Below, in pieces: positions 47,430 through 49,885 of a stretch of DNA of 64,000 nucleotides (position 1 is the first letter of the stretch; the number at the start of each line of letters is the position of its first letter). A program made the translations under genes and the position numbers. This stretch comes from Caldisericum exile AZM16c01 (GTDB lineage: Bacteria > Caldisericota > Caldisericia > Caldisericales > Caldisericaceae), in assembly GCF_000284335.1 (NCBI RefSeq), contig NC_017096.1:558001-622000 (forward strand), read 5' to 3'. Below the pieces are notes generated by a model, which worked only from the letters and a program-made list of their open reading frames with translations, had not been told where the DNA came from and searched no databases.

Positions 47430-48755
47430 TTAGTACTGAGGCAGGATATTTTTAATTTCCCAATCTGTAACGCTTGTCCTATATTCGTCCCATTCTCTTT
47501 CTTTTGCTTCGATATATTTTTCTGTTATTATTTTTCCTAATGCATCTTTAATTACTTCATCTTTTTTTAGTGCTTCAATTGCCTCTTTTAATGTAGATGG
47601 AAGCGTCTTAAATTTTCCTGGGTATCTTAAATTTTCTTCAAATATATTTATGTCGTTTGCAGCATCTCCTGGTTCTATTTTATTTTCAATTCCGTCAAGA
47701 CCCGCTTTGAAAACTACCGCAAAAAGTAAATATGGATTTGAGGTGGGATCAGGGCTTCTAAACTCAATACGTTTAGTCTTTTCATCTGCTTGAGGCACCC
47801 TAATAAGAGCACTTCTATTTTTTACTGCCCACGATACGTAAACTGGTGCTTCGAAACCAGGAACAATTCTTTTATATGAGTTAACCGTGGGATTTGCAAT
47901 GGCTGTAATTGCATCAATGTGCTTAAAGATGCCTCCTATGAAATACCTTGCAATGTCAGAAAGTCCAAACTCTTTAGAAGTATCAAAGAAAAGATTTTTT
48001 CCGTTTTTATCTATGATGGATATATTTGTGTGTGCTCCAGAGCCGTTTACTCCATAAATCGGTTTTGGCATGAAGGTTGCATAAAGTCCGTTCATCAGTG
48101 CAATTGTTTTTGCAGCAATTTTAAAGGTTATAATTCTATCTGCAGTTGAAATTGGATCTGCATATTTAAAATCAATTTCATGTTGAGAGGGTGATACTTC
48201 ATGGTGAGATGCCTCTATTTCAAAGCCCATTTCTTCAAGATTTTTTGCAATTAAGGCTCTCGTTTTTTCGCCAATGTCCTCTGGAAGCATTTCAAAATAA
48301 CTTCCCATACTTACAAGTTCTGTTGAGGGTGAGCCATCTTTAAGTTTGAAAAGGAAAAATTCCTCTTCAACTCCGTTTTGCATGAAATATCCCTTTTCTT
48401 CGCCTTCTTTTAGGACTTTTTTAAGTCTAAAACGCGGGTCTCCATCAAAAGGGGTATCCTCATCAAGATAAACATCGCAAACGATTTTTGCGATTTTTAT
48501 ATCATTACGCATCGTCCATGGTAGAATTGAAAATGTTTCAGGATTGAGTTTAAGAAGCATATCCGATTCTTCTATTCGTGCAAAGCCTTCTATTGATGAG
48601 CCATCAAAAGCAACACCATCTTCTATTGCCTTAGGAAGCATCTTTGATGAGATTTCAACAAGTTTTGGGAATCCAAGCATGTCTGTAAATTGAAGCCAAA
48701 TTAGGTCGATTTTCTTTTCGTGAACTTCTCTGTAAATCTCTTTTATATTCGTCAT
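47430..48755 (-). CDS. glnA: Glutamine synthetase type I
   Basis: 441 residues, the length of the Bacillus-type (GSI-alpha) enzyme without the adenylylation insert. GSSIEGFARIEESDM (about 58-72), EEEFFLFKL, NGSGAHTNISI and KRIVPGFEAPVYVSW with NRSALIRVP. Makes glutamine from glutamate and ammonia. I choose ATG 48755 behind GGAGG; ATG 48767 is upstream of that site. It follows the asparagine synthetase gene but has its own promoter. Both enzymes fix ammonia in amide form. Confidence 0.97.
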   Translation of the reverse strand: MTNIKEIYREVHEKKIDLIWLQFTDMLGFPKLVEISSKMLPKAIEDGVAFDGSSIEGFARIEESDMLLKLNPETFSILPWTMRNDIKIAKIVCDVYLDEDTPFDGDPRFRLKKVLKEGEEKGYFMQNGVEEEFFLFKLKDGSPSTELVSMGSYFEMLPEDIGEKTRALIAKNLEEMGFEIEASHHEVSPSQHEIDFKYADPISTADRIITFKIAAKTIALMNGLYATFMPKPIYGVNGSGAHTNISIIDKNGKNLFFDTSKEFGLSDIARYFIGGIFKHIDAITAIANPTVNSYKRIVPGFEAPVYVSWAVKNRSALIRVPQADEKTKRIEFRSPDPTSNPYLLFAVVFKAGLDGIENKIEPGDAANDINIFEENLRYPGKFKTLPSTLKEAIEALKKDEVIKDALGKIITEKYIEAKEREWDEYRTSVTDWEIKNILPQY

Positions 48756-48779
48756 ATGCGCCTCCATAAATTAATAAGT

Positions 48780-48807: not shown

Positions 48808-49689
48808 CTATAGTGCGATTTCTCCTGGAAGTTTTGCGAAAAGCCGTGCATCCTTTACGCTTTCAAGATTAAGCACAAATCTTAAAAATCTTTCTATCCC
48901 AATGCCACAACCTGCAGACCTTGGAATTCCTTTTTTTACTTCTTCAAGGTACCATTCCCAATCTTGCAAATTCATGTTTTTAAACTGCATCCTTTTTACA
49001 ATCCTATCAAATTCGTATTCTCTTTCTCCGCCAGACATTCCTTCACCAAATCCATATGGATAGATTAAATCCATATCCACAAGCGTTTTTCCGTCATCGC
49101 TTAACCTATCGTAAAATTCTCTATCCTCAATAGGGATATCAATAAGGAAGAACGGGTCAGTTTTTTCTTTTGAAAGTTGTGCTTCAAAGGTATTTCCATA
49201 TTTTTCTTTTGCCTCAAGAAATTTTACTCTCTCGAAAGGCTTCTTTGGAACGTGAAAGTTTGGATTTTGTTTCTTTATGAAATCTCCAAATTTTTCTTCC
49301 AATTTTTGCATTGTGTAGATTATGAGGTCTTCAACTAAATCAAGAATATCTTCTCTAGTTGCATCCTTTACCTCAAGGTCAAGTTGAACAAACTCAATAA
49401 GATGCCTTCCTGAGTTTTTCTTATCCTCAGTTTCAAGGCGAACATTTGGCGAAAAGATAAAAATTTTTGGATACTCACGTAGGGCAAGTTGCTTGTGGAA
49501 TATCATAGACTTTGTAAGGGAATAATAACCACCGTTGTAAGGGATTTTTGCATCGTAGACTGAATGATTCAAAGGGTCTGTTAAAGGAGAGATAATTACA
49601 GGTAAGATCTCGACAAACCCTCTACTTCTTAAAAACTCTCCCATTCTAAAGATTGCCTCACTTTGTACTTCTAAAACTTCTTTTTTCAA
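48808..49689 (-). CDS. Archaeal-type asparagine synthetase (AsnRS paralogue without anticodon domain)
   Basis: 293 residues of class II aminoacyl-tRNA synthetase catalytic core: motif 2 region NVRLETEDKKNSGRHLIEF and motif 3 SAGCGIGIERFLRFVL. It begins directly in the catalytic domain; the OB-fold anticodon-binding domain of AsnRS (about 100 residues) is missing. Such truncated AsnRS/AspRS paralogues in Pyrococcus relatives are asparagine synthetases that amidate free aspartate. A leader peptide rich in Asn codons and an attenuator upstream support this role strongly. The start is TTG 49689 behind AAGGAGG. Confidence 0.85.
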   Translation of the reverse strand: MKKEVLEVQSEAIFRMGEFLRSRGFVEILPVIISPLTDPLNHSVYDAKIPYNGGYYSLTKSMIFHKQLALREYPKIFIFSPNVRLETEDKKNSGRHLIEFVQLDLEVKDATREDILDLVEDLIIYTMQKLEEKFGDFIKKQNPNFHVPKKPFERVKFLEAKEKYGNTFEAQLSKEKTDPFFLIDIPIEDREFYDRLSDDGKTLVDMDLIYPYGFGEGMSGGEREYEFDRIVKRMQFKNMNLQDWEWYLEEVKKGIPRSAGCGIGIERFLRFVLNLESVKDARLFAKLPGEIAL

Positions 49690-49719: not shown

Positions 49720-49747
49720 TAAAAAAGGCCGGCTTTTTTGCCGGCCT
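49720..49747 (-). terminator. Attenuator terminator before the asparagine synthetase gene
   Basis: On the minus strand GGCCGGC (49746-49740), A6 loop, GCCGGCC (49733-49727), then U6 (49726-49721); one A-U pair (49747/49726) can extend the stem. It lies between the leader peptide and the gene, so it ends transcripts before the enzyme unless prevented. Confidence 0.92.
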
Positions 49748-49786
49748 CTGGGTAAAGATTAGCAATAGCTACCCAAACCGACCGGC
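49740..49786 (-). promoter_or_regulatory. Antiterminator of the asparagine attenuator
   Basis: In the RNA, GCCGGUC (49786-49780, inside the leader peptide frame) can pair with GGCCGGC (49746-49740), 7 bp with one G-U. GGCCGGC is also the 5' arm of the terminator, so the two helices exclude each other. A further hairpin, GGGUA (49774-49770) with UACCC (49754-49750), spans the leader stop codon. Confidence 0.75.
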
Positions 49787-49846
49787 GCCGGGCGAGTTAT
49801 TAATGTTATTATTATTGATTGCTACTGCTAATCTAACCCTTTCCAT
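49769..49846 (-). CDS. Asparagine-rich attenuation leader peptide
   Basis: A 25-codon frame, ATG 49846 to TAG 49771-49769, too short for normal ORF calling. Codons 11-17 (49816-49796) read AAT AAT AAT AAC ATT AAT AAC, that is N-N-N-N-I-N-N. It lies between a consensus promoter and a terminator upstream of an asparagine synthetase gene. Ribosomes stalling at these codons when charged tRNA-Asn is scarce would leave the antiterminator arm (49786-49780) free; ribosomes reaching the stop would cover it. There is no Shine-Dalgarno site; the transcript probably begins 4-5 nt before the ATG. Confidence 0.88.
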   Translation of the reverse strand: MERVRLAVAINNNNINNSPGAGRFG

Positions 49847-49857
49847 ATTTTGCACGT

Positions 49858-49885
49858 ATTATATTACAGTTTTTATCTTTGTCAA
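49858..49885 (-). promoter_or_regulatory. Consensus promoter of the asparagine attenuator
   Basis: Minus strand: TTGACA (49885-49880), 16 bp, TATAAT (49863-49858). Perfect in both boxes and the best promoter in the window. The leader-peptide ATG follows 11 nt after the -10. Confidence 0.9.

Follow-up and report, generated by a model that had tools for sequence, protein, structure and literature searches.

The region upstream of asnA, the asparagine synthetase A gene of Caldisericum exile, very likely harbors a ribosome-mediated transcription attenuator, one that responds to charged tRNA-Asn and governs the asnA-glnA operon. The parts of this element, their conservation, covariation, and genomic context, and the model-predicted structures with a ribosome placed at each codon are shown, whereas translation of the leader, ribosome stalling, and read-through under Asn limitation are inferred, with no expression, ribosome-profiling, or termination data behind them. 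Studies of ribosome-mediated attenuation have dealt with trp, his, leu, ilv, thr, and phe genes, as well as with cys by prediction, and the mechanism is not known to operate for asparagine. In the open-licence literature searched, neither an asparagine attenuator nor a description of any leader-peptide attenuator in these deep-branching thermophilic phyla was found, although the attenuation survey of Lopatovskaya et al. 2010 (cited in PMC4833913) could hold earlier predictions. Within that literature, the mechanism itself is known, while its Asn specificity, its occurrence in Caldisericota and Thermotogota, and its link to the glutamine synthetase gene glnA are likely to be new.

The element lies on the minus strand of the window, a stretch of 64,000 nucleotides from a genome consisting of one contig of 1,558,103 bases, and its features are summarized in Table 1. 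The promoter matches the consensus at 12/12 positions and occupies the same position in the Caldisericum relatives, and the transcript start is inferred to lie at about 49852-49850. In C. exile, the ATG of the leader open reading frame (ORF) is found approximately 4-6 nt from this expected 5' end without a Shine-Dalgarno sequence. The same arrangement, with a distance of about 5 nt and again no Shine-Dalgarno sequence, is seen in 4/4 Caldisericum genomes, implying leaderless-like initiation in this genus. Most Mesoaciditogales leaders carry a Shine-Dalgarno-like site. The Asn run mixes AAU and AAC codons and is therefore not a simple repeat. The leader fold reaches -55.4 kcal/mol, compared with -31.3 (sd 3.7) for shuffled sequences (z = -6.5). 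All coordinates in the original prediction, which had been made from sequence alone and had placed the promoter, ATG, frame, Asn run, stop, pairing arms, and U6 tract, were found to hold. As a separate observation, positions 49844-49852 of the window mark a possible leaderless mini-ORF within an attenuator. Candidates tried and rejected include a chance Asn run in AT-rich DNA (background of 0.35% for Asn and approximately 3% for Lys, Ile, and Phe), a known riboswitch or leader family (no Rfam family at threshold, the only leader listed being Thr_leader at 14.5 bits vs 55), and a T-box (no Rfam T-box match at the gathering threshold or at E up to 5).

Table 1. Positions of the asnA leader features and of the downstream genes in the window; RNA helices are predicted.
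Feature	Position	Strand	Details
Sigma-70-type promoter	49858-49885	minus	TTGACA 49885-49880, 16-nt spacer, TATAAT 49863-49858
Leader ORF	49769-49846	minus	25 codons, MERVRLAVAINNNNINNSPGAGRFG; ATG 49846-49844; UAG 49771-49769
Helix P0, 5' arm	49821-49839	minus	GGGU 49839-49836 and AGAUUAGCAGUAGC 49834-49821
Regulatory codons	49796-49816	minus	AAU AAU AAU AAC AUU AAU AAC = N-N-N-N-I-N-N
P1 (1:2) hairpin	49771-49797	minus	Between last Asn codon and stop
Segment 2, antiterminator arm	49780-49786	minus	GCCGGUC; partner 49740-49746
Inner antiterminator helix	49749-49775	minus	UGGGUA 49775-49770 / UACCCA 49754-49749; stop codon at edge
Helix P0, 3' arm	49750-49769	minus	GCUAUUGCUAAUCU 49769-49756 and ACCC 49753-49750; within antiterminator loop
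Segment 3	49740-49746	minus	GGCCGGC; antiterminator partner and terminator 5' arm
Intrinsic terminator	49721-49749	minus	AGAGGCCGGC, loop, GCCGGCCUUU, U-tract
Segment 4	49727-49733	minus	GCCGGCC; followed by U6 at 49726-49721
asnA	48808-49689	minus	AsnRS-like asparagine synthetase A; UUG start; GGAGG 49700-49696
glnA	47430-48767	minus	Type I glutamine synthetase; 40 nt downstream of asnA

The same leader layout precedes asnA in a core set of 14 leaders spanning two phyla, comprising four from Caldisericum, one from another member of the Caldisericaceae (L009), and nine from Mesoaciditogales (Thermotogota), while such a leader is absent upstream of five other asnA genes from Caldisericaceae. 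The leader frame is retained in all 14 genomes, and the encoded peptides contain 2-7 Asn codons followed by an invariant eight-codon stretch and the stop. AAU and AAC interchange freely among these leaders, and in L008, where a Tyr codon occupies the last Asn place, the run still ends eight codons before the stop. The N-terminal half of the leader is not conserved, conservation being confined to the Asn run and the RNA-constrained codons, and both Caldisericum and Mesoaciditogales retain the arm spacing and the pairing, with compensatory changes. In two leaders, L023 (G062; NNNDN) and L026 (G063; DNDN), one or two of the Asn places are taken by Asp codons, and it is possible that aspartate, the substrate for asparagine, is also read there.

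P1 (13 positions) is the pairing of segment 1, which starts at the last Asn codon, with segment 2; 87.4% of its cells are paired over the 14 sequences and 13 cells are changed on both sides. In the outer part of P1, the four sequences from Caldisericum agree less well with the consensus register, showing a 1-base shift or a few broken pairs. The 2:3 antiterminator helix (8 positions) is 95.5% paired with 4 doubly changed cells, each of the 14 sequences forming 7 or 8 of the 8 pairs, and is lengthened by the inner helix UGGGUA/UACCCA, for which relatives show equivalent GGG/CCC helices of differing sequence. The 3:4 terminator helix (9 positions) is 99.1% paired with 7 doubly changed cells. For all three helices, 0/500 shuffles equalled the real alignment in pairing or in the count of doubly changed cells, sliding of the partner segments led to loss of pairing, and an independent pairing count agreed; two further measures (pairs with double changes and pair types) did not clearly exceed the shuffles. 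Because the 14 sequences are related, these counts represent support rather than probabilities. Since the 1:2, 2:3, and 3:4 helices all covary, the element can be regarded as a complete 1-2-3-4 attenuator, and it meets the features of the trp type, namely a tandem-codon leader ORF, the three alternative pairings with a terminal U-tract, and a controlled gene, asnA, that makes the sensed amino acid. The original prediction of an asparagine-sensing attenuator, which would have been refuted had the Asn codons and paired arms not been conserved, survived because both are conserved. The search it proposed for the same layout upstream of orthologues recovered that layout in Caldisericum and Mesoaciditogales, with related Asn leaders in most asnA-bearing Thermotogota; the response to Asn-tRNA charging is still inferred. 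It had missed the covarying P1 hairpin and the UGGGUA/UACCCA extension.

Several alternative explanations can be weighed against these data. In the arrest-peptide model, a nascent leader with a conserved S-I-D-I-G-R-x-G end binds a metabolite and stalls the ribosome in a TnaC-like manner, rendering tRNA charging irrelevant. The recurrence of the C-terminal SIDIGRxG in Mesoaciditogales is in its favor; however, this end varies to PGAGRFG and AGTGESG, and in other Thermotogota to GPGSVG, WPGSVS, and QRR, while RNA pairing is kept, which indicates that the constraint acts on the RNA. The criterion for such a peptide, conservation independent of RNA pairing, is not met, and the Asn codon runs are left unexplained, making this model very unlikely. 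Also very unlikely is a reading in which the mini-ORF serves to produce a functional small protein, with the terminator merely insulating it from asnA. Its own promoter and terminator do frame the mini-ORF, but the N-terminal half is unconserved and the 2:3 alternative pairing, which a plain terminator does not need, covaries. Finally, the Asn frame might be incidental to another type of 5'-UTR switch, such as a T-box, a metabolite riboswitch, or a protein-binding terminator. T-box control of asparagine genes occurs in Firmicutes, and an intrinsic terminator is indeed present here; nevertheless, the conserved parts consist only of the Asn frame and the four segments, with no further conserved domain upstream, and there is very little to recommend this view. 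A ribosome-mediated attenuator remains the preferred interpretation.

The behavior of this attenuator was predicted by constrained folding of each leader, taken through the end of segment 3, with the leading edge of the ribosome placed 13 nt downstream of the A-site codon's first base and with a folding temperature of 37 C, although the organism is a thermophile. With the ribosome at the Asn codons, predicted antiterminator pairing was mostly 0.6-1.0 across the 14 leaders, with two exceptions, L009 (0.17 at the first Asn codon) and L026 (0.51 at the second); in the window leader it was 0.87 for most codons and 0.75 at the last. A ribosome at the stop codon gave 0.0 in 14/14 leaders. Without a ribosome, it was 0.00 in the four Caldisericum leaders, in which P0 and P1 form, and 0.00-0.92 in the others. 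The earlier proposal that a stall frees the antiterminator, and that a ribosome at the stop covers its arm, therefore held in all 14 leaders at the level of prediction. In the free full-length RNA, the terminator outcompetes the antiterminator thermodynamically, which means that switching has to be kinetic and dependent on the order of events. The trp attenuator switch is likewise kinetic.

In the proposed mechanism, RNA polymerase would start at about 49851 and a ribosome would enter the leader ORF. When Asn-tRNA is ample, the ribosome would pass the Asn codons to the UAG and cover segment 2, allowing segments 3 and 4 to form the terminator and ending transcription at about 49721. When Asn-tRNA is scarce, the ribosome would stall at the Asn codons and block P1, whereupon segment 2 would pair with segment 3, no terminator would form, and asnA-glnA would be transcribed. 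An untranslated leader from the genus Caldisericum would adopt the P0 and P1 fold, which leaves the terminator free, so that the default state would be off. Helix P0 is present in the minimum-free-energy fold, keeps 14-15 pairs in the four Caldisericum genomes with three compensatory changes, and has been seen only in this genus; given these retained pairs and compensatory changes, it is likely a genus-specific default-off device. A third pair restricted to the untranslated leader had been anticipated, and this claim held in part: the helix is longer than proposed, with 14-nt arms plus GGGU/ACCC, and its role in the untranslated leader applies to Caldisericum alone.

The asnA product scores 366.7 bits against NF005054 (cut-off 309) and is related to the solved 3p8t, an archaeal asparagine synthetase A, while the glnA product scores 497.5 bits against TIGR00653 (cut-off 429). 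The asnA operon of Caldisericum has glnA as its second gene; the asnA-glnA order also occurs in L006 and L007 and is shared by Caldisericum and one Thermotogota genome. AsnRS, GatA, and GatB are encoded in the C. exile genome and no asnB above its cut-off is found there, suggesting that free asparagine is probably made through asnA. No evident Asn-run leader precedes asnS (L002) within the stretch inspected, and no viral relatives of asnA were found.

A covariance model built from the 14 leaders (R1) matches only the asnA leader in the C. exile genome, indicating no second Asn leader of this kind. In 103 Thermotogota genomes, R1 gave strong matches before asnA in Mesoaciditogales and weaker matches before asnA in other families, and weak matches of 26-34 bits, seen in Thermotogota and in other families of Caldisericota, were taken as chance. 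With one stray exception (L141), the strong matches in Thermotogota precede asnA or glnA. Those before glnA occur in three genomes, L151 (G058), L152 (Athalassotoga, G054), and L158 (G154), where they represent Asn-run attenuators distinct from those of asnA in the same genomes. When 300 nt upstream of asnA were scanned in the 49 regions of the Thermotogota and Caldisericota set, a mini-ORF with at least 4 Asn in 7 codons was found in 38, compared with 0.35% of random 300-nt stretches. The remaining 11 comprise seven with 2-3 Asn codons, three whose leader lies at least partly beyond 300 nt, and L169, the sole region among the 49 with no leader. Relatives with few Asn codons include L026 (NDN) and DNNS-type leaders, and in another Thermotogota asnA group the Asn runs end in QRR or something similar and the terminator has a different sequence. 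The stray match (L141:1410-1600, G072) is a solitary Asn-run leader and terminator before an unrelated gene in a genome whose asnA lies elsewhere with a different Asn leader (L167); it may conceivably have been left behind upon asnA replacement.

In the protein tree, the leader-bearing Caldisericota asnA sequences fall within a Thermotogota clade together with Mesoaciditogales (100/99 support), L009 is nested separately among Mesoaciditogales-grouped sequences, and the leaderless Caldisericaceae genes cluster with archaeal ones. The tree suggests, as its simplest reading, a joint transfer of asnA and its attenuator out of Thermotogota, which probably happened twice; because the tree is midpoint-rooted, this direction is inferred.

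The asnA leader resembles the trp, his, leu, thr, and phe attenuators of Proteobacteria in its product-codon leader, mutually exclusive 1:2, 2:3, and 3:4 hairpins, and terminator before biosynthetic genes. It differs from them in sensing asparagine, in its occurrence in Caldisericota and Thermotogota, in its unrelated sequence (no Rfam match), in governing glnA as well, and in the near-leaderless start and additional P0 of Caldisericum. The uORFC-8-2 cysS attenuator motif of Rhodobacterales is likewise a codon-run leader predicted by comparative genomics, but involves cysteine codons, cysS, and Alphaproteobacteria, with asparagine unmentioned in the main text (PMC8632094). The hisS/hisZ histidine leader peptide of bacilli, a classical type that replaces a T-box, also lies outside Proteobacteria and Actinobacteria; it differs in concerning histidine and Firmicutes, and asparagine genes are unmentioned in the main text (PMC2965389). 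The T-box of Firmicutes asparagine genes also reads tRNA-Asn charging, but there the uncharged tRNA binds the RNA directly.

These findings tie an attenuator to glutamine synthetase, the gateway of nitrogen assimilation, on the basis of a separate leader in three genomes and the operon order in Caldisericum and one Thermotogota genome, and make it directly testable whether Asn-tRNA charging reports nitrogen status. The movement of asnA and its attenuator as one unit between phyla, as the tree suggests, likewise renders the spread of attenuators testable. A bolder joint reading, for which the case is evenly balanced at present, is that charged tRNA-Asn serves as a general nitrogen signal, with an asnA and glnA attenuator regulon extending across Thermotogota and, by gene transfer, into Caldisericota, and that unrelated Asn or Asn/Gln leader peptides, whose RNA parts differ, arose separately upstream of asnA in Aminicenantes/Acidobacteriota and Bipolaricaulota.

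Other asnA leaders were observed in passing. In MAGs from Aminicenantes/Acidobacteriota, and in one that bears the label Clostridiales (L047, L069, L073, L075, L076, L078, L079, L081, L082, L083, L085, L088, and L093), a different leader of 35-49 codons lies within approximately 300 nt upstream of asnA; it has 2-7 Asn codons and then V-P-F/L and a stop. The stop falls within or adjoins a GUCCCC/GGGGAC hairpin with no U-tract after it, and Rho-dependent or translational control is one possibility. Bipolaricaulota-type asnA genes (L049, L051, L057, L064, L080, and L084) are preceded by Gln/Asn-rich frames, such as QQNQHLLFHQQANQNAV, followed by GC-rich hairpins, and these leaders look as though they might sense both amides.
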